From: Antedon mediterranea
Taxonomy: Eukaryota > Echinodermata > Crinoidea > Comatulida > Antedonidae
DNA length: 64,000 bases
NCBI RefSeq assembly: GCF_964355755.1
Contig: NC_092680.1
Coordinates: 20,871,001-20,935,000 of the forward strand
Direction: 5' to 3'
The translations under genes and the position numbers were made by a program. Positions 4,738 through 51,418 of the stretch are shown in pieces. Below the pieces are notes generated by a model. The model searched no databases and was not told the origin of the DNA. It saw only the letters and a list, made by a program, of their open reading frames with translations. Each line of letters starts with the position of its first letter. Position 1 is the stretch's first letter.

Positions 4738-5058
4738 GTAACTATAAATTATTGGGATGTTTTTGGGACGATCAAATACGAGCTTTGCCTGATCTGACAT
4801 CATGCGCACCACCTTGTTTCACCGTCTGTTCAGCAGGCACGCCTTATTGCCAGACTGGTAGCATGACTGTTGACTTTTGCACAGATCTGTGTAGATCTAA
4901 ACAGCACCAATATGCTGGTTTGCAGGCTGGAAACCAGTGTTTCTGTGGCACGTCAGGAGCAAGTTTTAGCCAATACGGTGAACATACATGCTCGATTTCT
5001 TGTGTAGGTAACAGCTCACAGATATGCGGAGATGTCTACAGAAATTCGGTGTATGACA
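4738..5058 (+). CDS. Gene 1 exon: WSC domain
   Basis: About 107 residues between acceptor tatacag and donor gtaagt. The spacing follows WSC domains: GCFWDD near the start, an MTVDFCTDLC helix, then GLQAGNQCFCG, and CVGNSSQICG near the end. The same exon with the same phases (1-1) and the same Cys pattern occurs in the minus-strand gene at 40285-39935, which supports both splice sites. Confidence 0.9.
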
Positions 5059-8000
5059 GTAAGTTTATGCATTTGCTTTTTGGGGGGAAACTGTTTTTGT
5101 TTTGTTTATTATTCCCTATTCTATTGTATGTATTTTGATTTTCAATTGTATGTAGTTAAGTTCTTCTAGGGCCCCATACAATTCCTGTTGTGGCCCGGGT
5201 GACTCTGTTGCTTTTGGGGTCACAGGACATGATGTTGAACAAATAAATGAAATGATATTCAAAGTCACTCGTTTCAATTTTATTTGGGCAAAAACACATG
5301 GACTTGCAATGTGCTTGTCACATTAGGCCCAACAATATAAAAACACAATAACAATATCTACCATTATTTCTCCATTGACTACATTCACCATATCCATTTC
5401 TACAATGATCTTCCTCTATCTATCCGCAATTCATTATCCTTTTCCTCAGTCAAAACTAGACGACTTATGATTTTTCTCCAAACTGTGTAATCCCTTTCCA
5501 GACTTTAAATTGTAAAATATTAGATAATTATTTATATTTATTATTTTTGTTTAATTTAACATATCAGTTATTTTCTATATTCCATTTTTTTTAATTTAGA
5601 TTTTTAATTCTAATGTAATTTATTTTATTTATAGGCTTTTATTTTGTGTATTGTATCTGTTCTGAAGGACCCAAATAATTATCAGCAATTGCTGGATGGA
5701 TCACCCTCATTAAATATGGTTCAAATAAATAAATCTATCCATCGACCTAGTATTTATTCATTTACTACGTTCACTCCTTTCTTAACTCCATCTGCCTTCA
5801 TTTGTATTACCGGGCTATGGTGGTAATTATCTGAACTTGAATGCAGATTAACAAAAGGGTTAGAATTTTCACAGCATATCAAGTGCCATATGAAATATTA
5901 TTTGAAGCCTGGTCATTCACTTACTAATTAGTAATATACAGCCTTTTATCGCCACCACGTCCTTGTTTCTATGCGACATTTAGAAGGTTATAAGGATAAC
6001 TCTATGTAATGTATAATTGTGGTTTTTTTTAAATAATGTAAATGATATTAACATTAAAAGGTACTTCCGAGTTAAATAATTATATTATTTGTTATAAAAT
6101 GTAAACCTTGGCAACAAAATTGGCAATAAACCCAATTATTTTACCCTGAACTACAGGACTTTTCTGTAATTTTATAGGATTATTCACTGTAAAATTGAAA
6201 ATTATGTACTGTAAATTTAAGGGTCTTTTTTCCAAGAAATAGTTTCAAATTTTAGGTTTTGTAAGTTTATAAGTCATGTAAAACCAGTGAATCCCAATAT
6301 TACAGCAATATACTGGACAAGTATTTATTACAATCATTTTAAAAGAATGAGTCTTGTTCATGATGCTCATTCTGTTTTTCTGCTGACATGATGTTGCAAG
6401 AAACCTGTACCCGGAGCGACTCTTTAAACATAACAGTTGGTACCGGGCATAGCTTATCGAAAGAATAAAGTCTCACTAGACACAGTACTGTAGAAACATT
6501 CCTTGTATTACCACAGTCGAAATAATTAAATGTTTAATCAACTGAATATCAAACTCGTTACAAAAAACAAACTCCGAAAGTTGTGACGTAACATATATAA
6601 ATATGCACCCTCGACCTGGGGGACAATATTTTCTTTGAAAACATGCCGCCTTTTACCCTTTTCCAATACCTGTATTTGTTCTGTATATATACTGTTATAA
6701 TAATATTTCAGAGTGCTATTCAACCTGGGAAAATCGATTTCACAGACTGAATTCCGCCTTTGAATAAAACCGCAACATTTTCCATTATCTATATTTCACG
6801 TTTTCTGCTGGCAGAAAACACCAATTTCAAAACGATTTCCAATACAAGACGTCTTGTATAATTGCATTGCTACCCTTAGGCCTATTGTATACAATTGTAA
6901 AACGACTTCCTGACAATAAAAAATAAATTTTATTGAATTAACTTTGTAAGATATAATACTAGTCAATATGACCCTGATTTGCATAACTATAACATCTAAA
7001 TTTGAATACGTTGTAATTTTAGAATTAATAAAGGATAATTATTATTACTTCCCCGCGTACGTGTGTAAAGAAATTAACAATACCAATACATTTTATTGTT
7101 GATTAAATTAGTTCTTGGTATTTGAAATCGGCCTATAGGCCTAACTATCTTATTCACATTCTTTTTACAAAAACACTTACAATTACCTGATATAATCCTC
7201 AAAATGTCTTTATTATTAAGAATAATTTGTAACATTCATTTTATAGCTTTATACCAAGCACCAACTTGTCCACAGCCAGGTACTGTTGTAAATGGAAGGA
7301 TATTAACTGTTGAAAAATTAGAATATTTTGAAGGCGATTCAATTTCATATATTTGCGATGACACGGCTTTCTTGCTTGGGGAACCAAACAGAACATGTTT
7401 GTCTTCGGGGCAATGGAACGTTCCTCCTCCAGAGTGCCGAGCGGTGTGTAACGAACCCATTGTGGGAATGGACAGTAATCGAGGAGCTCCAGCGCCAATT
7501 GAAAAGTATGTTAGTAGCGTCAATATTGCTGGTGAACGGTACGCATTATCGTGTTTGGTCGGGTACACTAGCTTGAGTGACGTCCTTCTTGCCACTTGTC
7601 AGGCTGATGGTACTTGGGGCTATAATTCATCAGACACAATATGTGAAGGTATGTAAACACAATTGACATTTAATGTTAAGTATGAAACAAAATGAATGTC
7701 TTTACTAACACAGTATATTCATAATTTATCGTGTCAACAATTCAAGGTATGTTGAATTTGTGATGTAAGCTTGTTTAAAAACACTATAATTCAATGGAGG
7801 CATATCTATCAATTTGTTTATGCATTCGCTAAAAAAATGAAAAGGAACGATTTTACAACTTTTCAATGAGGAATATATGGCAAATAGGTGCCACATTTCT
7901 AATCAGCTTTTTCTATAATACTATTTATTATTATTTTTCTTTTTCTTTTCTTTTTCTTTGCAGTCGTGGTTTGTCCCACTCCTACACCACAGGAGGGTGT

Positions 8001-10575
8001 ACAAATAAGTGTCAATTCTTACTCGTATCTTAGTATACTTACGTATACATGTTTGGAAGGGTTTACGTCGTCATCGGGTAGTGTCAGTCGACAATGTCAA
8101 GCTGATGGAAGTTGGTCAGGAATGGCTCTTAGTTGTACTGGTAAGTCTTTGAAGCTAGTGGCTCTCTATAGCTTGGTTGTTGATCTTGGGGTTTTCACAT
8201 CAACAGGACTGTTGTACGTATGTTGCCACATACAGTATAGGATGGTCAGTTTAGAAAGCATTGGGTTATTTATCATCTAATTACTGTTTAACGCGTGTCG
8301 AAATAAAAGATTCAAGATTAATTATTATTACATAATATACATACTATTTTTCCATAGCTTACACACTACACTATTATTCTTAAAAGTGGTAAACATACAT
8401 AAGTATTGTGGTTTATTAAAAAAACATCCCGTGCCATGAAAAGAGGGTCAGAAACTAAGATTATTGGTTATATTATAACTGTTTACATGTTTTACTGTTT
8501 TCCACAATGAATCTCGTTGTCTTTCCAGTTGTGTCCTGTCCTCCACCTCAAATTACTGCCGATATGACAATAACCCCTGGACCATACTATTTTGGAGATA
8601 CAGTGATGTACTTCTGTCGTGACAATGGCTTGTTGATGGGTGAACAAATTCGAACGTGCACTGCAGGTAGCTCTTGGTCTGGCCAACCTCCATATTGTGT
8701 AAGACGTAAGTTCATATAATCTATTCATTTTAATTATATACAATTCAAGTATATAGTATTTATTTGTATTACCGACCTTTATGCAACATACATGTTCATT
8801 GAATGCTTTTATTATTGCTTTTCGTTTTATATCTATGTTCATTTTTGTAAATGTTTTGCTTAACCATACCTAGATGTTATATTTATATTTGTTTTATTTA
8901 TTTTAAATAATTTATGTTAATATTTTTAGCCACCACTCGAGTCATGAACTATGCAACCACGGCACCACAATTCACTGCAATAGCAGCCACAGGACGTCCA
9001 ACGGATTCTCGAAACACACCCAGATATGTGACTACACCACGCCCAACAACAATGCCACCATATCCAACAATGAAATTGCCGACAACCAGGAAACACGTTA
9101 CAACTGAACAAGAAACTAGACCACAAACATTTCACCCTAGAAAAACGTCTATAGCAGAAACAATAACAAATCTATGGAATACGGGAGATTCTTCGATAAC
9201 CAATTTGGTAACCAATATTAAATCAGCATCTGATCAAGATGTGACGTCACAAGATAATATACCGACAACTAGTGAAGGTTTTAATGAAAAGGCCAAAAGT
9301 GACAAATCTCCTGCAGGTAAGAAACATACCATTTCCCTCTTACACCAGGTATGGTTATTGCTTGTACTGAAGCCTATGCAGTGTAGCTTTATAGTTTCCA
9401 TCAGATGCAACTCTGTGGTTGATTGCTATCAAGAATTCATAGTTGCTATCAAATACAACTTTATGGCTTCTATCTCAGCAATGTCGATAAAGACTTATTC
9501 AGAATTCATCTCCATGTCTTGTGTTGAAATTCTTACTCCTAATTGACTTTCATTTATTGTTGCTCTTTATAGATTTCATGATACTGATTGTTATTGGTGC
9601 TGGTGTGTTTTCAGTAATTTTACTATCGATTATATTTACCGTTGCGTGTGTTAATTCGTAAGTACTGTATTTGTTTTTACCAATACTCGTAATAAATATA
9701 ACGTATAGCAATTTTTTGATCAAATATTGTTTTTTTCGATAATTATGATTAATCTACTGTACATTTAACTCCTTTGCATCTCAAATTGTTTTTATTATTT
9801 TAAATCGAAATTTAAAATCTTGATTTGGGCTGTTTTCTAGTTTAGTAGATTGTATCTAATATTTTATATGATATTTTTACGCAGACCAAAAAGAGGAAAA
9901 GTACAAGTTTCCAAGCAAATCAATTTCATCAGTAGTAAAGAGACTGGATCAATGATGGGCATTCTTTGGCCCGAAGATATCACACACGATAGTCCACGAA
10001 GTCGAGCGGATTCTGGACTACCTCCGTCAGCTCGAAACTCGCCTAATTCAACTGATGACTCCCCAGATGCAAATGGCAATGGTGGCATGGTAAACCTAGC
10101 CTTTGAACATGACGAGACAGACCGACGCAATGAGGCGGACCAACGAGATGAGGATCCCTACCACCACCGAATAGATTTTGCAGTCGTTAATGAAAAAAAT
10201 AATATCAGTAGCGTTCTGATAAACAGTGGTATAATGTCACCTGCTCCTCAAACACAAGATGACCGAACGTCTATAAGTCACAGTCGAATGAACAGTTTCC
10301 AAAATTCAGAAGATGTGGATTCATTATACGCTAAAGTAGATATGTCAAAAAAGACTAAAATGCGTATGCAGAACGTTCACAAAGATGATGCTTTAAGTGT
10401 GGATAATCCAATATACGAAAAATCGCCCCCTAAGTTTCTGTTACCGGTAAATGATAACCAGACGATAAACGGCGGCGGTGTCGTTAGAAAGACATCTCGT
10501 AGAACGCCCTCAGACGTCTCAGTATCAAGCCGTACGTACTGGGCGCAGTACGAAGAACAAGTAACGAGACTATAA
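4738..10575 (+). CDS. WSC + 4x CCP/sushi type I membrane receptor, 5' end missing (gene 1)
   Basis: Exons: 4738-5058, 7247-7648, 7964-8140, 8529-8705, 8930-9316, 9573-9657, 9885-10575 (stop 10573-10575). All have GT-AG borders; internal exons are phase 1-1, and the TM exon goes from phase 1 to 2. The order is a Cys-rich WSC domain (LGCFWDD through FCTDLC, QCFCG and SQICG), two CCPs in one exon, two single-CCP exons, a Thr/Pro-rich stalk, a TM helix (DFMILIVIGAGVFSVILLSI) and a 229-residue tail. WSC domains are putative carbohydrate binders and CCPs are protein-binding modules of complement regulators and adhesion receptors. The tail has SLYAKV (ITIM-like), NPIYE (NPxY) and C-terminal TRL (class I PDZ-ligand-like). 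The first exon in the window starts in phase 1, so a signal-peptide exon must lie upstream. I found none in 1-4737; the paralogue's first intron is 11 kb, so it is probably outside. Ligand and function are unknown. Confidence 0.9.
9885..10575 (+). CDS. Gene 1 exon: cytoplasmic tail with tyrosine motifs and PDZ-type C-terminus
   Basis: Terminal coding exon of 691 nt starting in phase 2 after acceptor ttacgcag. It is Ser/Asp/Asn-rich and has no recognisable domain. Visible motifs are SLYAKV, which fits the ITIM consensus S/I/V/LxYxxV/L, NPIYE, an NPxY type bound by PTB domains when this is intracellular, and a C-terminal TRL. The length, about 229 residues, is more than double that of the tail of gene 2. 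Confidence 0.85.
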
Positions 10576-10901
10576 ATGGTACCAAATTCATTGCGATTCA
10601 CTATTATGTTTTCTGAGCATGCGCAGTCTAGTGGCGCGTCGTGAAATCGTCGTGAAATCGTCTGTATTCGACAATCTTAACCGTTTGCACTATTTAACCA
10701 GTCGATAGGTAACGAGTAACGTTACTAAATTCATTGATAACAGCGATTTACTACGCGCCACGTTAGCTCGTCATTATATTTTCTGAGCATGCGCAGTCGT
10801 CTGTATTTAACGATCTTAACAGTTTGCACTTTTTAAAAGTAATTATAATTAAATGTCTTAATCCCACCGATTAGGTTTTGATAAATGGATTGAGATTTTT
10901 C

Positions 10902-12707: not shown

Positions 12708-15700
12708 ATGGCGAAGGCAGGTACTTCCGGAAAATTATATTTTTTAATTCTGTTACATATATTTCTATTACAGATATCGTTACCAATTTGTGATTGTGAC
12801 AACAGTAAGTTTTTAATTATTTGTACTGTTTTACCACTGTTATAGACAAATGTATTCTGATTGTATAGATTGTTACGGTGTTTCATTATGGTGACTGTAC
12901 TCTTCTGAAGGTTATGGAAAAATGACAATGTTTTTAGTTATCTTGGGAGATCCCCGTGTTGGTTTTCATTTTCGTAATATCTAAATTTCATAAAATTCTC
13001 TCGATTGAAAAATAAACTCTAGATATTTAATAGTAATGTTTATAGTATAAATGTTAATCCTCAGAGTATAAATTATTTTATTCTGAAGTATAAATGTTAT
13101 ATTATCATTATTGTATACCATTATGTATTCTAAGAGTCTGTTTTATTCTTATTTTTTTCAATTATAGCTTGTGTATATCCTGGCGTACAATCAAATGGTA
13201 ACGCTCTACCATTCCAAGGGTCGTTCCAAATCGGAGAAATAATTACATATATATGTTATGCAAATTACGAACTTGTAGGTCAAGTGAATTTAACATGTCT
13301 GGGTTCAGACACCTGGGATGCAGACTTCCCGAAATGTGTCAAGATATGTCCAGAAATTACATTTCCAAACACGCAGATTATAGACAGTAACGTTACGTTA
13401 GATTACGCCAATGTTATCGGAGATGTCCTTGTGTGGGGATGTGAAGATGGTTACTTGTTAGATCCAGGGCAAGATGACACACAGACGGTTACCAGATGCA
13501 AATCATTAGGATGGGTTACAGAGACTGACGTCATCACGTGTTCTAGTAAGTAGGCCTACTGTATTCCCACACTTAAACTATGATCAATGTATATTTTCCA
13601 AACCATTAATAATTAAGCCTACTCTTCCGTGGTTCAACTCTAAAACAACTAGGCCTAGGCCTAGTACACTGCAGTCTTTAAGTCGTAAAATATACATAGA
13701 GAAGAACATTCAGTAGGTTCTGATACTGGTATGTATCATTATTATGATATAGCCTACATGGGCGTATATTACTCTTATTACTCATACGCTCAGCTGTTTT
13801 TTTTTTATTATAATAAATGGTAATTGCAGCCTATTATGCTGCTGTACTCAATATTATTACACTGTAGTAGTAGTAGTGTACTACTTGGTAGACAAATTTG
13901 AAGCAATGTATTGAACGTTGTACAAAAAAAACAATGTAATAAGCATGATAATCGATAAAACATCTGAAAGTAGAATGAACTTTTCATTTTAGTCTTTTCT
14001 ACGTTTACGGATCTCTTGTTTTCTTGCGGGTATTCTTTTCATTTTATTCTTAAGCCTATCTTTAAGTAGGCATATTAACTCAAATTCTGATAGGCTTATT
14101 GTTTATTCGAAATAATATTTGTCCAAGATCTTCTGAGAATTTTAAATGTGTATTACACAGTAGAATTGCTATTGGCTACGAGTTCTGTAGCAGAAAGTAT
14201 TCAAATGGGTTATTATAAAAATAAGGATTTCAAGGTTTTTACTGTTGTTAAAGATAAGCCCCTTCCATTTCTATCAATATGTATGCATTCCACCAATGGA
14301 TGTTGAGTAAGAGTCTACTTAGGGACCTACAAAAACTTATCATGAATATTACTACAGCAATACATTAATATTTTGGAAAAGGAGGGGATTTAGGAGTGTC
14401 GGACTATGGAGATTAAGGTGTGTGGTGTCCGTTAAATATAATGCTACTTGCATGTCGACTCGAGAGTGCCATACGTTTGAGACAATATTATTATTGCATG
14501 TCGAGTGGGCCACAAACTATTGACATGACATGTTGAGTGTAGATTGAGTATAAGTGTCCTATTTTAAACTCTTAATAGTGAGTGTATAGAGCCAGGCATA
14601 CAACAATGCAATGCAAGTATACCAAGACCTGTTAACTGGAGATTGAGGCATGAAATACACAACAATATTTGTTGTTGACAAAAGGCAAAAATAGTCTTTT
14701 GTGTTAAAACTAAGGCTTTTGGTTTGTGTAGAATTCTGTTGTTATGCTTCATTGACCCATACCTTTCTTACAAAATAAGGTTCATAAAATCAAAGGGTAT
14801 TTTTGAATACCACCCATTACACCTTCCTTTTATAACAGTCATTCAGTGAATTAATAAATACAATACAACAATGTATTCTAAAATTAATACAATACCATTA
14901 TATATAGTTGCATTTTAGTTTTATTCGGATTGTTTGCATGGTTCATAATCCAAATTTATTTTATTGGAATAAAATAAAAGATAAACTGGTTTATGTTGAG
15001 GATGGTAAAGATGCAAGTCTTGGCTTACGATGCTACTTTAAAGTCAAGATCCATACATTTTAGGACGTGTATAATTTATACATAAAACTTTATTAATTTG
15101 TATAATATTTCTATTGGCCTAATCTATAAAAAGCTATACACTATCTAATTTCCTTACAGAAATATCTTGTCCGGATCCAGGAATTCCTATTGGGTTAGAG
15201 AGAGAGGGGAACTCGTTCTTATTTGAGGATGTTGTTACCTTCTCTTGCTCCAATGCAGATGATGTCATCAGCAGTGGGTCAACATCAAGAGTATGTCAAT
15301 CGAATGGTACATGGTCCGGGTCAAACCCAACTTGTACAGGTATGTGTATATATTTTATTATTATTTAGATAAAGCGTAATAAAAAATAGTTATATTATAT
15401 ATAGGCCTAGATGTCATAAAAATAAACCATAATAATGTGTAGCCACGTAATAGGAGTTTTGGGTCAGGGAGTTAAACCATAATAATGTGTAGCTACGTAA
15501 TAGGAGTTTTGGATCAGGGAGTTAAACCATAATAATGTGTAGCTACGTAATAGGAGTTTTGGGTCAGGGAGTTAAACCATAATAATGTGTAGCTACGTAA
15601 TAGGAGTTTTGGGTCAGGGAGTTAAACGATAATAATATTCCCGGTAACTAATCTATGACACCCAAACTCCTGGTCCTAAGGTAAAAGTGGTAAAAGTCTT

Positions 15701-18094
15701 TTCTGATCTTAATAGAATGTAGACATTATTATACTCTCATCCAGTAAATGGACGTTACCTTTTACCTAGGCTTCATACTAAACATATTTGTTTCATTAAA
15801 TGATAGATGTCAGTTGTATGGATCCTGGTAATAATAATTATACTACAAGAACTGGTGATGATACATTTAAATATGAAGCCGTTGTGACGTATGAATGTGT
15901 GGAAGGTGCTATAAAGGTGTCTGGATCAGAGTCTATCAACTGCCAATTGGACAGTACATGGTCTGGAGAACCTCTTGTATGCCAATGTAAGTGATATTAA
16001 AAATGATTTTTATTAGCTTCATAATAATTTTATTTTTATCTTCAATTTTATCGAATAAGCTATACATATTATTGCAGTAGATTTGAATTCTATTGAAGAA
16101 TTAGCTATTTTTTTAACACCTTTAGTCATAAAATATTGTTAATGAAGGTCTTTTAATTGCCTTTAGATCCAGAAACTACGCAACTACCTACAGACCTCGT
16201 GCCAAAAACAAGTAAGTTGAGCCTAAGTACATTTTCTCCCTCAATCTTATAGCACCTCATCTCAACTCATTACTATCTGTTCGGCACTCAGACTTACATA
16301 GGATGACTTTCCTTGAATTCTCTCTTTGTAACAACTCACAACTTTTGTCAAATTCACACACATTTTATTCTTTTATAATTAATCTAATTAATGAATTTAT
16401 TATTGTATTTTGTACATCTTGTTATTTAATCACTTCAGTACCTTTTGGAACTACAATCTTATATTTGATTATTTTATTTAACTGTAGGCCTAATACAACC
16501 AACTGCTTTCTATATTATCCATACTCTTTTTGTTAACATCTTTCTTGTTAAATATTGCTTAATAATAGGAATTCTATATTCATTCTGTGGATGAATTATG
16601 TTTGATATGTAACTGTATGTGAATTTTTTGTAGGTTCAATCGATGATATATCTACTACAGCTTTATTTTCAAATATTATAATGTCAACAACAGAAAAAGA
16701 GTCTGAAGTCTCTGCACTACCAAGTAAGTTCATTCATTTTTAGATTTCTATATTTACATTATTTTGAGTGGTGTTATGGTAAGCTCCCTTTCCTCTATCC
16801 AACTAACTTTACTTTTCGATGTTGGAATATTTTTTTTTTAAATTGATAATAATTATTACATTGTTTTTTAAACGAATCCGTTTTAAATTGCATTTCCTTA
16901 ACGTTTGCATAAATCTACTTATCAGTCTGCAACAAAAACCCCTCGGCACACAGTTTTCCCAAATGGTTTTCTCTCAAAATTCGATAGATATTGCTATAAA
17001 GCTAATGGTACCTAACAAATAGAACCTAAATATAAATAAAACTATACCTATTCCCTAAATAATAACTCTCAACATCACATCAACCATACAATAGTCGATG
17101 GGTCATAATAACGTAATAAAGCAAAAGCTTCACTCATTGTTTCTTTTTACAAACATTTTTAAAATGTTTATTTTACAGAAAGTGTACTCTATGCGGCCGC
17201 ACTCGGTGGTTCTTTAGTGTTCGTGATTTTGATTGGCTCAGCAATTTGCATATTTACAAGGTGAAGTATATCCTATACTCGAATGTTGTAATACATTGTA
17301 ATACGGAACTATGACTTTCAACTTTTAACAATTCAATCCAAAGTATTACTGATTTAAGTATCCTTTTACCTTGAATTCCTTCCATTTTTTTCTATATATA
17401 GGCCTATACTGTATGTTTTTAGATAGTTACCTTTTTGTAAATGTGTGTGTACTAATGTACATTACTAGTTAGTTGTATTTGTATTATATTGTTAACGTTT
17501 CTCTACTGAACCACCTAGGAAATCAATGCTTTTTTTGTATAAAGACAGAATAAATAAACTATACGTACGATGTAGTTGAATTATGTGGTTTTCTCAATCT
17601 AAAAACAATAAAATTAATTGCGTATTTACCAAGACGGAAGGGTAATTCTATCGTTTCACACACAAGAACAATAACAATAGCTTTTAAAATTATAGGTATA
17701 AATCTATTTTAAAATTTGACTATGTTTTAAGAAGTAAAATATTAATGATAGGCCAACTATTTACTATTATCAATATTATATTTTTAGTAAACCGAAAAGG
17801 TCCAAGCCAAACACACATCAAAAAACTGATTGGGTACTTACGCCTGGCGTAGACGAAGAGGAAACAGAGGCTATCTATGACCTACCTGATCAGAAACCTC
17901 CGTATATCGAACCTCTCAAACCCGGTCAGAAACCGGGCCGGAAACCACCGTACATTGAGCCTCTCAAAACAGGACCTCAGGGCCAAGTTCTAACTAAAAA
18001 CGACAGTGTGCGAAGTGAAGGGTCGTATTTAACTCCAGAGGAGTTTGTTTCAATTGAGTATCAAAACGTGCCAGAGGTTTTGACGAGATTCTGA
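12708..18094 (+). CDS. 4x CCP/sushi type I membrane receptor (gene 2), complete
   Basis: Exons: 12708-12804, 13168-13545, 15160-15339, 15807-15986, 16167-16211, 16634-16723, 17179-17260, 17788-18094; 1359 nt, 452 aa, in frame throughout. Residues 1-30 are a signal peptide (LYFLILLHIFLLQISL core). CCP1 (about 34-89) and CCP2 (about 93-157) share one exon; CCP3 (about 162-217) and CCP4 (about 222-277) have one exon each. Each CCP has four cysteines and most have the Trp before the last Cys. Two small exons encode a Ser/Thr stalk. TM about 327-350 (ALGGSLVFVILIGSAICIF). The roughly 100-residue tail has EAIYDLP, two copies of KPPYIEPLK, GSYLTPEEF, EYQNV (YxN, Grb2-SH2 type) and C-terminal TRF. 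There is no WSC domain. The layout is that of membrane complement regulators or adhesion receptors, but orthology is not claimed. Confidence 0.9.
15423..15637. repeat. 50-bp tandem repeat, about 4.3 copies
   Basis: Unit includes ccataataatgtgtag, ctacgtaataggag and ttttgggtcagggagttaaa, with period exactly 50. Lies in the intron between the CCP3 and CCP4 exons of gene 2. Confidence 0.95.
17788..18094 (+). CDS. Gene 2 exon: tyrosine-rich cytoplasmic tail with internal duplication
   Basis: Phase 2 terminal exon after acceptor tatttttag. It encodes a short basic juxtamembrane stretch (KPKRSKP), then an acidic patch, AIYDLP, KPPYIEPLK, a QKPGR linker, KPPYIEPLK again, SYLTPEE and EYQNV before LTRF. 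The repeated nonapeptide is encoded by two similar but not identical DNA blocks, so the duplication is old enough to have diverged at silent sites while the peptide was kept. Confidence 0.88.
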
Positions 18095-20401: not shown

Positions 20402-20489
20402 CCATGGTTTCAACAAGATGGCACACAAACATGACGAGACGTGTTAATAAGAATATAAATAATTACGTACAGATGAGAATTTTGTGAGA

Positions 20490-28600: not shown

Positions 28601-28920
28601 AATAATGTGCTATCCATTTGAAAGAATGTGCTATCCATTTGAAATAGGCCTAATGTGCTATCCATTTGAAAGAATGTGCTACCCGATAATCATAGAATAA
28701 TGTACAGTACTATATCCATTTGATTTTGCTACCTAATGTGCTATCCATTTGAAATAATGTGCTATCCATTTGAAAGAATGTGCTATCCATTTGAAAGAAT
28801 GTGCTATCCATTTGAAAGAATGTGCTACCCGATAATCCGTATAGAATGCACAGTACAGTTATATCATAGTTATATCCATTTGATTGAGCTATCTATTGTG
28901 CTATCCGTTTGAACTAATGT
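25690..28920. repeat. Nested satellite: 86-bp unit with variable 21-bp subrepeats
   Basis: More than 30 copies of a unit with tacccgataatccgtatag, aataatgtacagtactata and tccatttgattgtgctacc. Its simplest form is 86 bp. Extra copies of the 21-mer aatgtgctatccatttgaaa-g are inserted in varying number (one to six per unit), so total unit length varies in 21-bp steps. Variants (ccgt/cctt, gaaag/gaaat, gattg/gactg) recur in blocks. Some sections repeat at higher order (26850-27130 resembles 28150-28440). Frames read as a 7-residue repeat but are not genes. Confidence 0.97.
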
Positions 28921-29006
28921 GCTGTCTGTTTGAAATAATTCAGGGTTTTTTTTTTAAATATGTTTTGCTATCCATTTTAAACGTGCTAAACAAGTTACAT
29001 ATTTGT

Positions 29007-31952: not shown

Positions 31953-32196
31953 CTATTTGGACATAAACTTGGGTTTAAATTTTCCGCCACTTGTTTCGCT
32001 TTCCAAGTGACCTATTGGTTTCCAGCCATCTGATTCATCGATTCCATTGGTTGTTGGCTCAACTTCATTTTCTTCGGTCATGTCAAACCCGTCGTTTGTC
32101 GCTGCCATTGGTGGTTCAGCAAACCCGTCCAGGTAAGTAGGGTTAGGAATTGCTTCAATACTAGTAGTCTCTTTCAAAGGATGTTTTGTCTTTCTC
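31953..32196 (-). CDS. Gene 5 exon: cytoplasmic tail
   Basis: Phase 2 terminal exon of 81 residues. It begins with a basic stop-transfer stretch (KRKTKH), followed by NPTYLDGF, an acidic middle (MTEENEVE) and a Gly/Lys-rich end. The NPxY resembles the NPIYE in the tail of gene 1. Confidence 0.85.
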
Positions 32197-35100
32197 CTAA
32201 TTTTATACAAAATAATCAAGAATTGGAAATGTTTAACTGTTTTATTATATACTGCAATTTCTTGTTAATTCTGGAAGATTTGATTGATTTTTCTGTTAGT
32301 TTCGTTGTTGTTAAAGAATATTTCATGGGCGTGGGTGCGGGGTGCAGTTTATGAGGATCTAGCAGCTCTATTTTCAAATTGTCTTGTCTCCAAACTATTC
32401 GAACTATTGAACAGACATTTATTATAATAAAATTTATGTAGTAACAGCAATTCAATTAAATGCTGTAACGGAAAAAGAAAAAAAAATACGAAATTAAAAT
32501 TGTTATTACTTACTTTGCAGCAAGTATGTACGTTGCTCCTAAAATTAATATTATTAACAATAGAGCTGATATACCAATAACTATGTACATCATCAGCATA
32601 TCTATAAAACAAAATTAAGAATAATAAGTGGTTACAAAAAATACAATTGTACAATTATCTAATCTAAATACACCATTTACAATAATGTTATACCAGTAAT
32701 TAGATTTATGCCTTCCGTATCTATGACAAATGGTTACATAGAATTTCAAATGACAAGTATATTTTAGACGGAAAATAAAAAAACCCAACTTTGTAAGAGA
32801 ACTACAGCATGAACCCTCTATCGCAAATGCTCGACTGACTACTGCATTCCAGCAGTTATTGTAGTATTTAATGCATGCTGCATATTACGTAATCCTGGTT
32901 GTTACGCTACCCGTATGCAAATTAGGAACGTCATTCTGAGGGATAGTAATTATCTTTATTGACCGGGTAAGAAGAATGTGAATGAAGTTGGAAGTTAAAT
33001 CAACAACAATCAACGCAGAAGAACTATAGTATTTGTAAGTAAACGTTTTTAATATTCGTTATTCTATCAATTGCCAAATACCAGTAGGAAGGTTTAAACT
33101 AAACGACATACGTCGATACCACGAGTTTGTTTTCTGAGATTTTTGAAATTCGAAATAGGCCTACGATATGTGGTAATCACGATAAGTAAGCTACAACAAT
33201 GTCTAAACTTGTAACAACATAACGGCATTAAGTTATACCAGAGTCGCTTTAAAAAATGTTTAGGTTGATCTTGCGCACATAATAGACGGTCGGTATAACA
33301 GCAAATAGAACAGATAACTTATCGTTTTTTTTTTTATCTTATAGGCCTAAATACTAATCTAAATGTTTAAACAATAATTTTCAAAATAAATACCTGATTC
33401 TCCAGTAGTCTGGGCAGCATTCTCACCTTTACCAGCTGAAATTCAAATAATGATATTATTACATCTATCGTGTATTATAGCCTAGATGATGTACACACAT
33501 CATTATAGTTCAATGTTTATTTATATAGTTTATTATAGAAACAATACGTCTTTATCCTATTAAACCTTTTCAGTATGTCTCTTATGTATTTAAGCATATC
33601 TTGTATCCTTTTTGCAGATTTATTATTACCGCTGGACGATTTTCAGTCGAAAAGATATTGTTTAGGATTAGGCCTAATAAAACATCATATTTAGTACACT
33701 TAGTCCATCAAACTTACTAGTAGCGGGTACTGCGGTTGACTTTGCCTGCGTTACCTCATTTGATGATGATGGTTTCATAGCTAAAAAACACAATTAATTA
33801 AGAAAAGTAAGTAACGATTGCGCATATACCAGTGACGAATGTTAATAAAACTTTATTTTATAATCACAGATACACAGACAAGCCACAAATACTATCCAAA
33901 AACTTATTTCTTTTAAAATAAAATGAAGTACCAAATCTAAAACAATTCAATGTTTTCATTTATCTTTAAAAATGTCAGCATTTTTCTATTGTTTTCCTAA
34001 CGCAAAATTAGTTATTTGTAGACATTTACAATTATCAATTGACATGACATTTTGATTTTTACAGATTATTAAACCATAAATATACATTTAAACATGTTCC
34101 AACTCACGGATAACGACATCCTTTTACAAATTTACCGTAATTAAAAAATCGGAACCGGTGTAAATGTAATGTTTGTGGAAAAGGCAGGAAATGTGCTTAG
34201 AGAAAACAACCACCATGTTAATCATCAATCACTTACTATCACTTGTTAACTTAGTTTGTAAAAGTGTTGTTTGTTGGGTGTCAGTAGTAGGCCTAGGCGG
34301 TAATGTTGTACGTATCAGCGTTGTAAGCCTTTGTGTAAGCTTCAGCGTTGTCAAACCTTCTGTTGTTACGTGATCAGTTGTAGTTTTAGGCAGCTGGGTG
34401 GTGGGGCTTTGCGTTGTGTACAGGCGAGTGGTAGGTGGTAGAGTAACGTGCTCAGTTGTTGGATTATGTGCTATTAAAATAGATTTTGTGAATTCCCAAT
34501 AAGATACCACAACCGTGCAAAAACATTAAATGTACAGGCCTATAAAATATGCAACTAAATTCAGTCTACTACATTATTTGCAGAAAGTAAAACGCATATT
34601 CTTGTTTTACGAACACATATTGTAGAAGTTAATTTAAATTAATTTACTTAAATTGAACACAGGGATGTATGCGTTGTACTTTCTTTTTGAATTGTTATTA
34701 AACCACACATAGAAAAGGTGCAACAAATTGATATGCATGCTTTAGTTTGCCACCAATCTTAAGATAAAATAAATCATGTGAATTTCACATCTAAACTTAC
34801 TTGTGATTGCTTCAGATGTTGGTTGAGGGATTTCTAAAAAAAATTAATATATTCAATATCGTAATGCAATCTCACTAATATAATATCAAAGTCATATGGC
34901 CATGTATTTTGTGCTTCTGTGCTTATTCCCATAATTAGAAACACAAATCATATAATATGGTGTCGTCATGATATTTAAAGTATACAGTTTTCATCATTTA
35001 ATTGGTCTCCGTCCGATATTCCAATTTCATTTACTTTGTACAACTTTTAACTTCATTATATTTCGGTGAGTGAATATAATAAAAAACAAACGATGCAATA

Positions 35101-38100
35101 TATTTGTTTTAAAATGGTACAAACCTGTACAAACTATTGGTTCTCCAGACCAAGAGGTATTAGTATGGCAAGTTATCATTGCGTTTCCTCCTGTCTGCTC
35201 GTATCCCGTCATGCATTGGTAAGTAACTATTGCTCCAACAACATAACTGTCGCCAGTTCGGATTGAAAACTCAGAACTTTCTGGTTCTCCACACGTAGAA
35301 ACTGAAATTGAATCAATATTGTATTATGTTAAGCTGTATGCAAATGGGGAGACGTCTCAACGGCAATCATTTGAATTTTTTTGTAATTGTTTTATAATCC
35401 GCAACGCGGCTTTTGCTCAATTTTATGGAGAATTCAAATAATATAGCTTAAAGATGTATTGTCCCTTTGTCAAATTCCAAAAAAATAAAAATTAGAAGAT
35501 TTCGAAAAAAAGTGGGTCATTTTGAAGTATCATAATAGTTATTAACTTTCCCCAAAAATTAGTCGAAAAAAAAAATTATTTAACTGAAATACAGACGTTT
35601 TTTATTTAAAAAAAAACTGTGACTTCCAGTCAAAGTTTTCGATCAAAACATATCTCATAATGCAAAGCGCTTGTTTGGCTACTATGTATGCATAATCATA
35701 AAACTTCCTCGCGATGTGTGTGAAAACACCTTCTCAACCGTGACGAGTTGTAAACAATCGTAATTAGGATCATGCATAATGCATACTCTTGGTTTGAAAT
35801 CTTTGTTTACTTTCGCTTGTGACGATTTTCCAGACAAAATGTAATCAAACTAATTTACCTGTTAATTACGTAAAATTGTTGTTTTTGGCACGAATTTTTG
35901 ACTTAAAGTGAATAACTTTAATATTACTTTGATATGGCCAATTTAAATTTAGAATATTTTGACTTTCATTTTTTTTGTGTTTCAAGGGACAATACATCTT
36001 TAAACAATGTAGTGGCCGATCGAGGATGCCATAGACAATAGGATTCTATATTATGAATAATGATATTGGTATACTGTTCAGATCCCTCAGGGGTCGACAA
36101 GATAATAATAAATGTATGAAGAAGGCCTCTGTAAATGTGGATGATTAGATAATACGAGATATAGATAGACACGGTATTCGAATTTTAAAGAGATTGTTGG
36201 TACCATCTATCGGAACAAAACATAAGTTATTGTTATTTAAAATCTTCTAATTTGAAAAAAATACTACGTAAAAAAAACTCAAAATATATGGCTAAACGTA
36301 CTTGAACATGTTGGTTCTTCACCAGACCATGAACCGTCTATCCCACACATCCTCCAGTCATTTCCACTACTAATACCATACCCAGGTTCACATTCGTACG
36401 TTACAATTTCACCGTAGGTTGTCTGATCAACCTCTACGGTAATTCCATCAGGAGATCCCGGATGCATACAATCAACGACTGAAAGTAAAACAAAAGAAAT
36501 CGCTATTAAATTATGTTTATTCATAATGTAAGAAATGTGTGTAGAACAATAACAACCTGAATCATTAAGACAGTAATTGATTTTATTAGTCAATGTAATG
36601 TTTTCTATCAGTTAACATGACAGGGTCGTTACCCTTGAATTTCGGGTCAAACAAAATGCAAGCGGCCTAAATTATGCTCTTGTACTTTTTTGTAATAATA
36701 ATAACGTAACATAATGGGTTTATATATCTTTTTTTACAGTCTACATGTGCAATAATTCCGCTTTAAAGAATGAAAGTGTACCATCTACCTTTGCATTTTA
36801 AGCAAATGCTATTATTACAAAACAAGCGGCCTAAATTATGCAATTTTTTTTGCTAGTCAGAAGATAACGTAACTTTGGCTTCTTCTAACTCCATTGATAG
36901 ATTTATATATCGATTGTCTTACAATAATGCAATAATTCCGCTAAAAGAATGAACATGTATCGTTATATTATATTAGCAAGCCTAGTTAAATAAAAAAAAT
37001 AATAAGGTTGAAATCAAATTACTTTGGCAGTTCGGAGCGCTGTCTGACCATGTTCCATCAGCCTGACATGTGATGCTCTGGGAACCCGTGATGTCATATC
37101 CGGTGTTGCAGTTGTATTGTACACTACTTCCATATGTTCTTACACTGTCCCCACTCATTTCTCCGTTAGTCGGCGGTGAGCCTGGATCACCACAGTTTAC
37201 AACTGAAATGAAAATAATTCAGTAATAATGTAATAAAGTTGAAAAATAACTGTTTGTTTTTTTTAAAGATATTTAGTTAGATATTTAGGACTACTATACT
37301 AACTTTGGCAAGTTGGGCCGTCATCTGACCATGTTGCATTAGCTTGGCAAGTTATAGTCTCTACCCCTATGAGGTCATATCCGGTTTCGCATATATAGGA
37401 AACGACGCTGTTATAAGTTGTATTCAGACCAGATCTCCAGAGTCCATTGACTGGTGTACCAGGGTCTCCGCAGTTAACAACTAAACAGACACATTATAAT
37501 GTTATTATTTTTGTAAACATGTATGAGCATTTCCTGTTAAAAAATCAGGCTCACCACACAGTTCACAAACAAATTATGTAATATTAAATAATTAAAACAA
37601 TAATAATCATGAAATATATATATATTAATTCCAAATTAAGCTGTAATGTTTTGTTACTAGAAATTATACGTTTTGAAGTTTATAAAAATAAACACCATTT
37701 ATAGTATTAGAAAATGTAAAATGGAAACACACTCTTGAAATGTTTTTTCTTTAAATTCAATTAAATAAAAAAACGTTAATTCACGAACATTAATTTGAAA
37801 TATTATTTTAAATATATATTAAAAAAAAACTATTAGTACAATAGTACAGTAATATTTAAAAGTAGAAAACAGGCTAATATTAAGAACTAATTTAAGTTAT
37901 GTTTACTTTTACAAGTCGGAACATTGTCTGTCCATGTTCCATCAGATTGGCAAGTTATGATCTGTTCACCAATGATGTCATATCCGGTATTGCATATATA
38001 GGAAACAACGCTGTTATAAGTTGTAGTCAGACCAGATCTAAATCCATTTGCTGGTAAACCAGGGTCTCCACAGTCCACAACTAAACGAAAATGAAACACG

Positions 38101-41100
38101 AAATGTTATTTATTCAGTACAGAGGAATGGCAACATTTTTCCTACTTTCTGGAGTTTTAAATGAGTTGTTAGTGGTTCCGAAGAAAGTCTTGTTTGGCCA
38201 CCCTGTGTTTGTTCTGTCTATCTAAATACTTTTTTAGAAGTTTACTTTTTTAGAAGTAGTAGTAGTAGTAGTTTAAAATTCAGATACATTAATGTTTCCT
38301 GTATGGAATGATTACTGAGATGTACATGAATTGCAACTATACCTCCACAAGATGGAGTTGATCCGGACCAACTTCCGTCTTCCAAACACATTCTGGTCAT
38401 GTCTCCAATCAATTCATAGCCAGCAGTAGTACACGTATATGTAGCTGACATACCAAATGTTGTGCCAGATACATGTGAAACCTCCCCATTATTAATATTG
38501 CTTAACCCTCCACAATCCACAGCTGTCAATAAATTAATGTAATTTGTAATATTAACATGTTTAAAGAAAATTGCTTAGCGTTACACATAACGGAAAACTC
38601 GAGGATAATTCTGATTAAACTACCATAAAATATTAATGGAATGCCTTAGTTGTTATTAATTAAATACTGCATTACTATTTTGTTACTTTTATATTTTGAC
38701 ATAATATTCATTCTGGTGAATAGGTCTTGCTAATTGTTAAACCACTTTTCTTTTACCTTTATTTTAATTAGGCCTACTCTGGAGACACTTTCACTTAAGA
38801 ATCGTGTCACTGTTTTAAATGTGTAGCTTCCAAATATTTAAAGTAATAACTTTAGTACAGTATAGAACTCTGAAATTAGATATCTATTTCACCAATAAGA
38901 ATATATAGCCTATTTGTGTCAATTCTTCTTCTTGTCCTCTCATTGTTCAGTTATTAAGATTAGTGTTCTGCACTGTTTCTACATTCTTCATGAAGTCCGA
39001 AATGAAGAGAAATTAAATGTAATATGTTTTCTTTTTAAAACACAAGTGAAAAAAAAAAACTTACGGATACAAGATGGTAAGGATCCTGACCAATTTCTAT
39101 CTGACTGACACTGTCTTGTCGAAGAATCACTTAAAACATACCCAGGATTACACGAGTAACTTACAGATTTTGGGTAGAAAAACTGATTTTCATTAAGAAC
39201 ACCATTTGTTGGTGTACCAGGATCACCACACGAAACACCTGAAACATAACGTTTTAATCTATTTAGAGAATTAACATCAGTGGAGGGTGTAACGATTATG
39301 AAAAGTAGGCCTACTGATCTTCACTAAAATTAGTAGTAGGAAGGTTACTGTAATTACCATTGCAAGTTGGCAACGCTTCTGACCACAAACGGTCCTCTCG
39401 ACATTCTAATTCACCACTTGCAACACCGCCCTCTGGTTCATATCCTACACTGCATTCATACGTTATAGTATCGCCAACAACAAAAGCCCCAGTATATTGA
39501 ACGTTTCTGCTAACTTCTGTTAACGAATCTGTGTTCAACGCAGAACACTCTCTGATGCACGCCGGTTGTGTTTCTTTAGTTACATGACTAAATGCACCGG
39601 AAAACCAACAATATGACTCTGTAGGTCCAACTTGGTGAAATCCTGTGTTACATGTCAACGTCACAGTGGTCTGTGAGGCGTATATTTCTTGATTTGGTGT
39701 AACCGTACCGTTGCTAAACTCAAATGATGTACAATTCATAAATGCATCATCTATAAAACAAACACATATATTTAATCAAAATATTACATGAGACACCTAT
39801 GCCTACTATAACTTTTTGCACCATAAAAAAACCTCGTTGCTTCAGCGTAATACAAACTCTCCAAGGAGAGTCTATTACAGCATTAAATAGACCTACAAAA
39901 TCTACGTCTTCAAAAATAAATTAAATATACATACTTTTATACATAATAATTCTTAATTCTCCACCACACAATTGACTGTTATCTCCTGTACATGTCTCTT
40001 GCGTGCAATTATTACTTGATGGTTTACCGTTTGCTGGAGCCATTGGATCGAAATTATCTCCACAAAAGCACTGACTTCCAGCCTCCAAACCAGAGTATAG
40101 GAAACCCCGCCTGTGACATAAGTCATGGCAAAATTCTATAGTCATAGAATCCTCACTTTCACAGTAAGGCTGATCTGCTGCGCATCCATTGCACTTTTCT
40201 TCAGGTTCTGGAATATTGCAAGAGTCTAGGCCTGGAAGTGTTCGGTTTTCCGCATAATCGTAATAGCATCCTAAGTTTTCAAAGCCTAGAAATTAAACAA
40301 ACGCATACGTAATATATCTTGTATACTGAATTTAACATTATTGGCACTGTCCTCATTTTCATCTTAAGAAATAGGCCTACTAAGGATGTCTATACAATAT
40401 TATTATTAATTTTATCTCGCAAGACCACATTCATCAGTCAGGTGAACCGAATTAAATATTCAAATGAACAACACTAGAAGATGCATTTTTATGTATTTAT
40501 TTTATTTTTATTATTTATCATTTTTGTTTCGGCCCTTGTTAAAAAAATCATTTTCATTGTAAACTATACATAGTCCAAACTGGCTACCGTTGCATTTTAC
40601 GAAATGACTAACTTTTGAGGAATTTATTTCACTTTAGGCCTATATGTAACCTTAAAACGTATTTCAAAATGCTTTGTTTTACCACCGTTCATCCATAAAC
40701 TTGCTATATTAAAAGCCATTTTCATACCAAACGTTAATTGAACCGAGATTTAATTTGAGAAAACAAAACATTCTAAGCCACGTTGTAAGACCAATCTTAA
40801 TTGAACATTGTAATATTCATATTCGTAGCATACAATACAAATATTCGACAATCATTACTATTATAATTACCAGTATTAGCTCTACCATTATTTAAGTAGG
40901 AACATATTACTCTTGATAATGAAGGGGGATATATTTATTTAAAATACGCCTTTACTCGATGTAAATCCCACCTTTTATGCTCCTACCAATAGCCTAATAT
41001 TTTTCTGTGATTCGTACCATATTACCATTATTTAGGATGATACCTACAGTACTGTCTGCTCTAACAATAAGGTGATTGTTTTTTTATCACACTACGCATG

Positions 41101-45630: not shown

Positions 45631-45677
<47 letters not shown>

Positions 45678-48600: not shown

Positions 48601-51418
48601 TTGATTTAGTATTGTTATATTTCACCATAATTGTTGACTTCACAAATAGTGGCAATTTACCAATTAACTTTACGTTCTTTGAACAAAATTGTGAACGATG
48701 ATTTCATTATGTTTGTATTTATTTTTGAAATTTACAGTTGAATATTTAAATTATAATATGTGTTGTATATACGTAATAGCGTTACCGTAAATGGTACAGT
48801 AGGCAGTTATTATTGAAAATGTCACAAAACGGTGGACTAATGAGATTCCTGTAGTCGTAGGCCATTGTTTGGTATTCGACTAGTTCATTTCAGATTTCTT
48901 TATAAATCGATTATTCACAAAGGCAGAATTCGTTTATTTCTTTTATTGTTCACCTGTAAAAATAATTCTTAACACATTTTTTGTTGAATATGCCATTTTA
49001 ATGTCATCTAATTACTATCCACTTTGACCAAAATCGAATGATTATTTTTATCAAGGGGTGAACATGTGGGTCACTTAGTAAAAACGATAGGTCACCTTTG
49101 CCATCATCTGTAGCTTTTTTTTTACCGTTTTTGGTAATGAAATAACAACAAAAAATGACAATATTGTGTCCTTCTCGTGATTCACCTTGTGGTTGTACGC
49201 ATTGCTGCCTAAAAAGCAATTCTATCTTGGAAAAGATTCTAATTTATTATTACGGATATATGAGGATTAAAATGTTTGTATTAATCAAATCGTTGACTTG
49301 GGTATGAGTTCGTGGTGAATATGGAACTATAGGCCCTGGTATTCTTCTGTATTGTACCGGTATTGATTATCTGTTAACGTCAGGCTGTTTAACATCCCGA
49401 AATACTACTTTTCATGCGGATATAGGGCCTAACCTGGAATGTTTACCTCCTACAATTGTATTGTTATTGAGGTTTAAACACAATTTATTCAATTCTGAAA
49501 GTCAAATGCTCTTAATAGTGCTGTATATGTATCAATTGATTCACAACTGTATTTTTATAATACCGCCATTCTCCTTCCAGCTCACACATGCTTAATATCT
49601 GTATCTTCGTTTAGAAAATGAAGTGAGGCCCAATAAAATGTACAGTATCTTTTAGTAGTTTTGTTAATTGAATTTATATTAGGCATGTTTGAATAGTATT
49701 ATACGCCTGTTCGTTTTGTTAGTATACATGAGTACGACATAGAATTTGAAAAGAACATCATTTTACCTCAAACAAAATAGGGATGCTATGTGATCAGGGA
49801 GGTACCTCAATGCTACTGTGTTGATACGCATCTAAGCCATATATCACCTACTGTATTTTATCTACACTTCTGTGTTATGAGAATAAAAATAATATTAATA
49901 AACATATGAGCCTTAGGGGAAGGGTCACCCACATTGTTTGAAATCATCAAGTGTTTTAGGAATGCTGACCGTCAAAATAATCTACAGTATTCGTTATGGT
50001 TTCTGTTATTAATGTTTGATGGGAAAATTGTTACGGTATTTCTGTAGATGATATAAATTTGATAATAAGGGTATATCATAATAACAAGGAAACATATGAA
50101 AATCTAAAGTTTGTATAAATTCAAGATTTTTCTCTTCAAGCTTCAAAATGGTAGCTTTGGATTATTACGTCATTTTGAATTGATTATTATTCAACTATTC
50201 ATAATAACCAGCATTGACCTAAATTATAATAACAGTATCATGCAAAGACTGGTAGACGTGTCTGTCAGATACCTATTGAAGGTTGTGTTTTTGTTAGCAA
50301 TTCTCTGCTGTCATTTAAATTATATGCATAATTTTGGAGTATTGAAGGAGTTTTGCTAGGTGAATAAATACCTCTTTTAAAACATCAAAATCCTTTAGTA
50401 TATACGTCACAATAGTATTAGTGGGTTTCTTTATATGTAACTGTTTGCTATATACGCTTCGTGTGTTTTCTATAGATGAGATCTAACGTCATTGGCAACC
50501 ACTATTGTGTTGCATATTTTTCTAGGGTTGTTAATGAATAGAAGGTGCAGCGATAGAAAAAAAAACATGACGGCAGGCTTACATACTCATCAATCAGAAT
50601 CAGACGTTTTGTATAATAGAGGCCTAGGACAGCAATGTTCAAATCTCTAAATATGATTTGCTTGTCACACTTATTATTGAAAGAAATTCAATAGTTCGAA
50701 ACACCGAATGTGTAAATAAAGTCTGCACAAATAGGCATAATAGAAACGTTTTAAAATGCGAATTGGTAAAAAAGAATACGTTGTAACTTATACAAAATGA
50801 TAATTGACATTCTGGAGAGTAAAAGTTAACAATTCTCTTGTCAAACCAATAGAGTATAACACTATAGAACAGATTCAAATTTCTAAAAAATGTAGATAAT
50901 TTGTAATCATAGTATATACCGCATAATCAAATTATTATTTGTTTCTGAGTATTTGATAAACAATATTTGTGAAAATGATACTAATAAACTATGTTACCAG
51001 TACTTTAATTATAACTGTATAACTATGGAGTCCTCTATGATATAACCTACCACTGGATTTGACTCTACTTTCTGCATTCTAATAATACAATCCTGTAATG
51101 ATAATAGGCCTAAAACGAACGAATGACTTTTTAGTATTATCGGGTTTTTCTTCAATCGATAATTTTTGTACTTCAGTGATAAAATACCATTAGAGAATAT
51201 ATTCGAATACAGTCGCTTCTGGATTCGATTTGGTACTATGTAAATAGAATCAGCTATTCGCATGCAGGTGAAATGGTTCACATAGAATTAGAAAGTGATC
51301 CGAGTAAATGCCAAATGTTTGGTTAAAGCAATCCACATCATACAATAATTGAAATCTTACCTGTACAAATATGTAATAGTAAAAGTCCTAGAATTACAAA
51401 CATCAAATTCGATCCCAT
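31953..51418 (-). CDS. WSC + 9x CCP/sushi type I membrane receptor (gene 5), complete
   Basis: Exons in transcript order: 51418-51361, 40285-39935, 39750-39358, 39238-39065, 38522-38343, 38080-37907, 37480-37304, 37202-37023, 36478-36302, 35301-35125, 34833-34801, 34470-34237, 33780-33718, 33435-33394, 32601-32514, 32196-31953; 2745 nt, 914 aa, in frame. Residues 1-19 are a signal peptide (LMFVILGLLLLHIC); WSC about 22-130; two CCPs in one exon, then seven single-exon CCPs up to about residue 680; four Thr/Ser-rich stalk exons; TM about 806-830 (IVIGISALLLIILILGATYI); an 81-residue tail with NPTYLDGF (NPxY). Unlike the + strand relatives it ends in MSK, with no PDZ-type C-terminus. The first CCP has its Trp right after the third Cys, which is atypical. 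The first intron is about 11 kb. A surface recognition or adhesion role is inferred. Confidence 0.9.
35448..36003. mobile_element. TTAA-flanked MITE family B, copy 2
   Basis: A 556-bp element with ends ttaaagatgtattgtccc and gggacaatacatctttaa, a near-perfect inverted repeat. Sits in the gene 5 intron between exons 35301-35125 and 36478-36302. No ORF of note. Confidence 0.85.
37304..38080 (-). repeat. Tandemly duplicated CCP exons in gene 5 (38080-37907 and 37480-37304)
   Basis: The two neighbouring exons encode CCPs that share runs such as TTYNSVVSYIC, TGYD and GDPG, and they are similar at the DNA level too, including silent positions. They look like a recent exon duplication by unequal exchange, with about 430 nt of intron between them. 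Confidence 0.8.
39358..39750 (-). CDS. Gene 5 exon: two fused CCP domains
   Basis: One 393-nt phase 1-1 exon holds two CCPs (first from CTSFEFSNGTV, second from CSALNTDSL to EALPTC). The same two-in-one exon is at 7247-7648 in gene 1 and 13168-13545 in gene 2. Since CCPs normally have one exon each or are split differently, the fused exon is a shared derived feature of these three genes. Confidence 0.9.
39935..40285 (-). CDS. Gene 5 exon: WSC domain
   Basis: Phase 1-1 exon of 351 nt. It shows LGCYYDY, MTIEFCHDLCHRRGF, GLEAGSQCFCGDNF and CTGDNSQLCGG, the WSC Cys pattern, and matches the WSC exon of gene 1 in position and phase. It sits about 11 kb after the signal-peptide exon. Confidence 0.92.
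41605..43389. mobile_element. 1.8-kb GC-rich non-autonomous DNA transposon
   Basis: Terminal inverted repeats caggcccgtatccag / its complement at the right end (gcatacgggcctg), then G-runs ggggggtgcg / cgcacccccc inside both ends. Flanked on both sides by CAGTA (41600-41604, 43390-43394), a likely target-site duplication. The right half has two copies of a GC-rich block (about 43012-43107 and 43271-43360) with ttcgcccctgg-, accgggggcccttggcggcc- and gctcgcttcgctcgca-type words. No transposase frame. Confidence 0.8.
45149..45185. repeat. GC-rich inverted repeat
   Basis: ctagatggtacgcgagcg followed by its near-complement cgagcgtgccatctag, with one mismatched pair. The core gcgaagcgagcg resembles the gctcgcttcgctcgc words in the transposon 2 kb away. 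Confidence 0.7.
45608..45685. mobile_element. Small foldback element with CATGGAG ends, copy 2 (TA-rich core)
   Basis: catggaggaaatatata ... tatatatttcctccatg with an alternating TA core, making almost the whole 78 bp self-complementary. In intron 1 of gene 5. Confidence 0.65.
48952..49040. mobile_element. MITE family B, internal fragment
   Basis: acattttttgttgaatatgc, then cattttaatg and tatccactttgaccaaaa match the interior of the copy at 4110-4452. The terminal repeats are missing. Confidence 0.65.

Follow-up and report, generated by a model that had tools for sequence, protein, structure and literature searches.

The stretch analysed here, referred to as the window, comprises 64,000 nucleotides of the crinoid Antedon mediterranea (contig NC_092680.1; C11:20871001-20935000; GC content 33%), from a genome of 354 Mb in 18 contigs that was searched as a whole. 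It carries three genes, A and B on the + strand and C on the - strand, encoding predicted membrane receptors composed of WSC, complement control protein (CCP, also known as Sushi) and stalk modules, a transmembrane (TM) segment and a cytoplasmic tail. Coordinates are those of the window, with negative values lying upstream on C11. The models of the three genes were built exon by exon from splice-site scores and open frames, and domains were assigned with Pfam on the spliced models, on the neighbouring genes D and E and on a distant relative, gene F. The three receptor genes are real, intact-looking and built of the same interchangeable exons. Gene A encodes a protein of 769 amino acids (signal peptide, WSC, four CCPs, stalk, TM, tail; Pfam WSC 1.8e-11, Sushi 8.8e-31) and gene B a protein of 452 amino acids (signal peptide, four CCPs, stalk, TM, tail; Pfam Sushi 1.3e-25 only), which are organized as follows.

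-3954..-3885, + strand: gene A, signal-peptide exon, outside the window (splice-site model)
4738..5058, + strand: gene A, exon 2, WSC domain with an extra Cys insert, phase 1-1 (Pfam WSC)
7247..7648, + strand: gene A, two-CCP exon, phase 1-1 (model and Pfam)
7964..8140, + strand: gene A, CCP3 exon, phase 1-1 (model and Pfam)
8529..8705, + strand: gene A, CCP4 exon, phase 1-1 (model and Pfam)
8930..9316, + strand: gene A, Ser/Thr-rich stalk exon, phase 1-1 (model)
9573..9657, + strand: gene A, TM exon, phase 1-2 (model)
9885..10575, + strand: gene A, cytoplasmic tail including the stop, with NPIY and SLYAKV (model and motif test)
12708..12804, + strand: gene B, signal-peptide exon, phase 0-1 (model)
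13168..13545, + strand: gene B, two-CCP exon, phase 1-1 (model and Pfam)
15160..15339, + strand: gene B, CCP3 exon, phase 1-1 (model and Pfam)
15807..15986, + strand: gene B, CCP4 exon, phase 1-1, pairing with CCP9 of gene C (model, CCP tree and best-match table)
16167..16211, + strand: gene B, stalk exon 1, phase 1-1 (model)
16634..16723, + strand: gene B, stalk exon 2, phase 1-1 (model)
17179..17260, + strand: gene B, TM exon, phase 1-2 (model)
17788..18094, + strand: gene B, tail with four YxxP (YDLP, YIEP, YIEP, YLTP) and IEYQNV (model and motif test)

Gene B is devoid of a WSC exon and its first intron measures just 363 bp. In gene A the first intron holds a 139-bp tandem array (743-1421) and, outside the window on its upstream side, a long 33-bp minisatellite.

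The spliced models comprise 8, 8 and 14 exons in A, B and C, respectively, with continuous frames and uniform, consistent phases, the module exons (WSC, CCP and stalk) being of phase 1-1, the TM exon of phase 1-2 and the terminal tail exon of phase 2-0. Sushi was detected in all three proteins (four CCP modules in A, four in B and nine in C, according to models and Pfam) and WSC in A and C, above cut-off and with E-values far beyond chance; neither CUB nor kringle, EMI or atypical EGF repeats were found in the Pfam scan of the three spliced models. In the WSC domains of A, C, F and loci L018 and L020 a Cys-containing insert separates the first strand from the MT helix; an AlphaFold prediction for the WSC exon reached a pLDDT of 43.6, too low to be used. 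These data bear out the original prediction of a local cluster of membrane receptors with common exons, including single-CCP exons of phase 1-1, a TM exon of phase 1-2 and a leading WSC exon present in two of the genes. The two-CCP exon, also proposed to be common to the three, agrees in position and intron phase, but its sequence homology is weak (identity of 31% for A-B, 19% for A-C and 24% for B-C), and gene A, which had been placed from 4.7 kb onwards, retains its exon set but not its start, as position 4738 opens exon 2.

Gene C encodes the longest protein, of 889 amino acids (signal peptide, WSC, nine CCPs, stalk, TM, tail; Pfam WSC 7.9e-10, Sushi 3.8e-81 in 9 stretches), with the following exons.

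51361..51418, - strand: gene C, signal-peptide exon, phase 0-1 (model)
39935..40285, - strand: gene C, WSC exon, nearest to that of gene F, 59% (model, Pfam and alignment)
39358..39750, - strand: gene C, two-CCP exon (CCP1-2), 46% to F, E 9e-33 (model and genome search)
39065..39238, - strand: gene C, CCP3, 54% to F3 (model and best-match table)
38343..38522, - strand: gene C, CCP4 (model)
37907..38080, - strand: gene C, CCP5, duplicate of CCP6 (model and comparison of CCPs)
37304..37480, - strand: gene C, CCP6 (model)
37023..37202, - strand: gene C, CCP7 (model)
36302..36478, - strand: gene C, CCP8, pairing with CCP3 of A and CCP3 of B (model, tree and best-match table)
35125..35301, - strand: gene C, CCP9, pairing with CCP4 of B (model, tree and best-match table)
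34237..34470, - strand: gene C, Thr/Pro-rich stalk exon (model)
33718..33780, - strand: gene C, second stalk exon (model)
32514..32601, - strand: gene C, TM exon, phase 1-2 (model)
31953..32196, - strand: gene C, tail with NPTY (model and motif test)

The closest relative of the outer half of this protein is encoded by gene F, which lies on the same chromosome 7.9 Mb from gene C (C11:12,986,000-13,013,000; loci L027, L017 and L028). Both proteins are 50.8% identical over 323 amino acids spanning WSC-CCP1-CCP2-CCP3, with a nonsynonymous divergence (dN) of 0.33 and a synonymous divergence (dS) of 2.4 between their WSC domains, and a genome search with the two-CCP exon of C retrieved, besides itself, gene F and one weak CCP match (E 0.005). 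In the CCP tree C1 joins F1 (support 100/99; ultrafast bootstrap, UFB, 100), B4 joins C9 (96/75) and A3, B3 and C8 fall together (84/83); the best-match scores agree, pairing C1-F1, C2-F2 and C3-F3, then C8 with A3/B3 and C9 with B4. Because of the tree and the best-match scores the outer half of C groups with F and the membrane-proximal half with A/B, and gene C is a mosaic, F-like in its 5' half and A/B-like in its 3' half. The exons encoding CCP5 and CCP6, with 81% DNA identity over 185 bp, represent an internal duplication. A, B and C consequently do not constitute a simple clade, and the view of the three genes as simple sister copies is not maintained: in the trees the WSC and two-CCP exons of C stand apart, although the membrane-proximal CCP pair does not. 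The inversion postulated for the cluster is likewise not supported: gene C lies on the opposite strand and its 5' half is allied to a gene 7.9 Mb away, and in a mosaic of this kind, compared within one genome, opposite orientation is not callable as the inversion of a tandem array.

Gene F itself is modelled as 21 exons on one strand with phases that fit end to end. Exons for a signal peptide, WSC, two CCPs together, a third CCP and the TM are followed by two juxtamembrane exons and by kinase exons in two sets of seven, fourteen in all. The two kinase domains, which fold C-terminal to the TM, match PF07714 at 6.7e-50 and 6.8e-51 and were aligned by phmmer to FGFR and EGFR. In these alignments the catalytic loop reads CPMLCCRS/CPMLCCQL where HRDLAARN is expected, DFG is replaced by VIG/VLG and the first domain has AIAY in place of VAIK. 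Gene F therefore lacks the catalytic residues of a receptor tyrosine kinase (HRD Asp, DFG Asp, VAIK Lys), and its two domains are tandem pseudokinases. A genome search with the second of these domains revealed two more copies, at C1:23.90 and 23.917 Mb, which carry the same CPM/VLG signature and belong to two very similar genes (L029 1-10000; L030 4740-9950) that encode a signal peptide, two CCP-like exons, TM (1-0) and one pseudokinase. Between the second pseudokinase of F and a C1 copy dN is 0.16 and dS 0.46, which indicates purifying selection, the dead motifs being maintained rather than decaying. As a predicted model with 1.4 kb between the juxtamembrane exons and the first kinase exon, gene F might falsely join two genes, one for a WSC-CCP receptor and the other for a pseudokinase, making the link of the pseudokinases to the cluster illusory; this is quite improbable, given the unbroken phase chain on one strand (TM exon 1-0, juxtamembrane exons 0-0, kinase exons phase-continuous) and the recurrence of the CCP-TM(1-0)-pseudokinase layout, with kinase exons of identical phases, in the two C1 genes.

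The tails of A, B and C had been described as being of the signalling type, which is no more than suggestive. When tail sequences were shuffled (six motif types tried, P values uncorrected), NPxY exceeded expectation in C (NPTY, P 0.003) and in A (NPIY, P 0.03), and so did the four YxxP of B (P 0.001), but ITIM-like (immunoreceptor tyrosine-based inhibitory motif) sequences, [ILVS]xYxx[ILV], occur once each in A and B (P about 0.17-0.19) and are absent from C. An ITIM reading of the three tails was rejected, as these motifs are at chance level by shuffling.

The cluster extends beyond the three genes originally proposed: these were confirmed, but two more relatives on the + strand are found upstream.

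About -10.3 to -5.9 kb, + strand: gene E, SRCR-WSC-CUB-CCP-TM, with exons SRCR at -10256, WSC at -9451, CUB at -8537, CCP at -7828 and TM at -6538 (splice model and Pfam)
About -21.1 to -14.2 kb, + strand: gene D, SRCR-WSC-CUB-CCP-TM relative, with an SRCR-like exon at -21065 (without a Pfam call), WSC at -20456 and TM at -14355 (splice model and Pfam)

After its WSC exon, gene D includes two CUB-like exons (one of them called by Pfam), CCPs, a Thr-rich stalk, a domain without Pfam match, a further CCP and TM. The Pfam-unmatched domain, located at -15591..-15292 in gene D, looks common to D and to L026 (5264-5587, reverse strand), a second SRCR-WSC-CUB-like gene situated 50-60 kb from F. The pairs C/F and D/L026, linked on a single chromosome, may reflect an ancient block duplication. 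Downstream of gene B, on the + strand, a long Ser/Thr-rich exon (21845-22561) is followed by a cluster-like phase 1-2 TM exon (23095-23182), with neither CCP nor WSC found; this element is possibly mucin-like or a decayed fourth relative. Between B and C there is a large nested tandem-repeat block (25765-28939) with units of 21, 86 and 107 bp. Gene C adjoins a DEG/ENaC (PF00858) channel-like gene on the - strand at about 56.5-63.3 kb. As a marker of segmental duplication, this family (with at least 90 exon matches across the genome and clusters on C5 and C8) also has channels at C11 12.6 Mb, at a distance of 0.35 Mb from F, as well as in numerous other regions. On C5, at 11.85 and 11.90 Mb, the WSC-bearing segments L014 and L015 lie about 45 kb from each other and are almost identical, representing either a recent duplication or an assembly duplication.

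Exons for WSC, SRCR, CUB and CCP modules are often shuffled in animals, and the proteins described here might be generic, fast-evolving CCP mosaics without a common function, originated by neutral exon traffic and local tandem duplication. In line with this, identity among A, B and C is low in the two-CCP exon, at least 150 CCP exons were scored elsewhere in the genome, and the 34 WSC matches found genome-wide occur in varied settings, many beside FA58C-like, EPTP-like or polycystin-like exons (neighbourhoods judged by eye). Conversely, module order and the phase 1-2 of the TM exon are constant, several relatives show purifying selection and the pairing of the membrane-proximal CCPs of A, B and C in the tree argues for common descent, so that this explanation is rather unlikely. 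A subset of the WSC genes, on C6 and C11, corresponds to SRCR-WSC-(CUB)-stalk-TM(1-2) genes (modules judged by eye).

Comparison with known systems was made in Pfam, in the PDB and in open-access text, a scope in which absence is weak evidence. The earlier statement that this architecture is not recognisable as a named family was upheld in all three, and the open-access papers yielded no WSC-CCP-TM proteins, SRCR-WSC-CUB receptors or CCP pseudokinase receptors. The sole animal WSC-CCP protein found in these papers is glycerotoxin of Glycera, with the order EGF-WSC-WSC-CCP (PMC5336659). As in A and C, WSC is joined to CCP in glycerotoxin, which differs in having EGF and two WSC domains and for which TM or stalk and tail are not reported. 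The "WSC domain" mentioned for a kinase-like protein of Drosophila (PMC2754085) may mean a WIF-type Ryk protein and was set aside.

Among solved structures, the closest to the WSC of gene C is Kremen 1 (4e-10). Kremen 1 and 2 (Kringle-WSC-CUB-TM) are, like A and C, type I membrane proteins with WSC, and upstream gene E and locus L012 retain WSC followed by CUB and then TM. These genes could accordingly encode receptors of a Wnt/Dkk-type pathway that derive from Kremen, the kringle having been lost and CCPs having taken the place of CUB. However, A, B and C have neither kringle nor CUB (CUB being present in D and E), the WSC of A and C bears the Cys-rich insert, Kremen has no CCP arrays, stalk/tyrosine tail or pseudokinase, and the WSC identity is confined to the common core, all of which makes such an origin very improbable. 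Best PDB matches of CCP1-5 of gene C are complement receptors 1 and 2, factor H, CD46 and CD55, whose strings of CCPs, mostly one per phase 1-1 exon, resemble those described here; in addition, gene B (CCP-stalk-TM-tail) is similar in outline to CD46. It is improbable, though, that the three proteins are regulators or receptors of the CR1/CR2/CD46/CD55 type binding C3-like products on cells, given that no CCP proteins are better sampled in the PDB than those, and the match is thus generic. WSC is not known from the regulators of complement activation, whereas it forms the tip of A and C, gene B alone having a CCP-only ectodomain. As for signalling parts, gene F resembles CCK4/PTK7, Ryk and ErbB3 as a single-pass receptor with kinase-dead tyrosine-kinase-like domains but differs in its WSC-CCP ectodomain, two tandem pseudokinases and the change of HRD to CPM. 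The engulfment receptors CED-1/Draper/MEGF10 carry NPxY/YxxL tails; any likeness to A and C is limited to the short NPxY motif, and neither EMI nor atypical EGF repeats occur in A, B and C.

Altogether, A, B and C are interpreted, with a confidence that goes a little past even, as type I recognition receptors of one exon-shuffled superfamily with adaptor-docking tails, in which the kinase-dead relatives would act as scaffolds or co-receptors of the same pathway. In the families concerned, the WSC module is a putative carbohydrate binder, CCPs have proteins or glycans as ligands, and stalks rich in Thr/Pro form extended, O-glycosylated structures; NPxY is a binding site of PTB or endocytic adaptors, and YxxP one of the SH2 domains of Crk/Nck. 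In the proposed mechanism the phase-1 introns flanking WSC, CCP, SRCR, CUB and stalk exons would enable genes to acquire, drop or swap modules, and the membrane-anchor/tail end would be exchangeable too. The WSC-CCP tip, kept off the membrane by the stalk, would bind a glycan or protein ligand, and clustering by the ligand may lead an active kinase to phosphorylate tail tyrosines. The tails of A and C might then recruit PTB/clathrin adaptors via NPxY, with an uptake or engulfment-type output, and that of B Crk/Nck-type SH2 adaptors via the YxxP repeat. Most probably these receptors recognise a ligand at the cell surface and have a tyrosine-based output, immunity and adhesion not being separable from sequence. 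Several points weigh against this interpretation: the models of A, B and C are predictions made solely from splice-site scores and frames, the tail motifs are backed by shuffling in a single genome with six motif types uncorrected, the CCP and WSC trees are built on short sequences and mostly poorly resolved, and the tail of gene A has no second match anywhere in the genome.

The observation stands as real; it is of an ordinary kind, with unusual details. That cell-surface receptors arise by phase-1 exon shuffling is known already; here the traces of shuffling are unusually legible, and the family looks like one of recognition receptors with swapped inner signalling parts. More tentatively, it could constitute a new receptor system in one animal lineage, in which a WSC-CCP sensor is read either by adaptor tails or by tandem pseudokinases acting as kinase-dead allosteric partners, the halves being exchanged by exon shuffling. 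For specialists the main interest resides in the C/F chimera and the receptors with tandem pseudokinases, both out of reach of the original prediction. If expression confirms the models, they would provide a concrete case of a signalling pseudokinase fitted to an existing recognition domain, and genes A-F together with the two C1 genes would be a set in which to ask whether pseudokinase receptors partner the tail-bearing proteins that share their tip.

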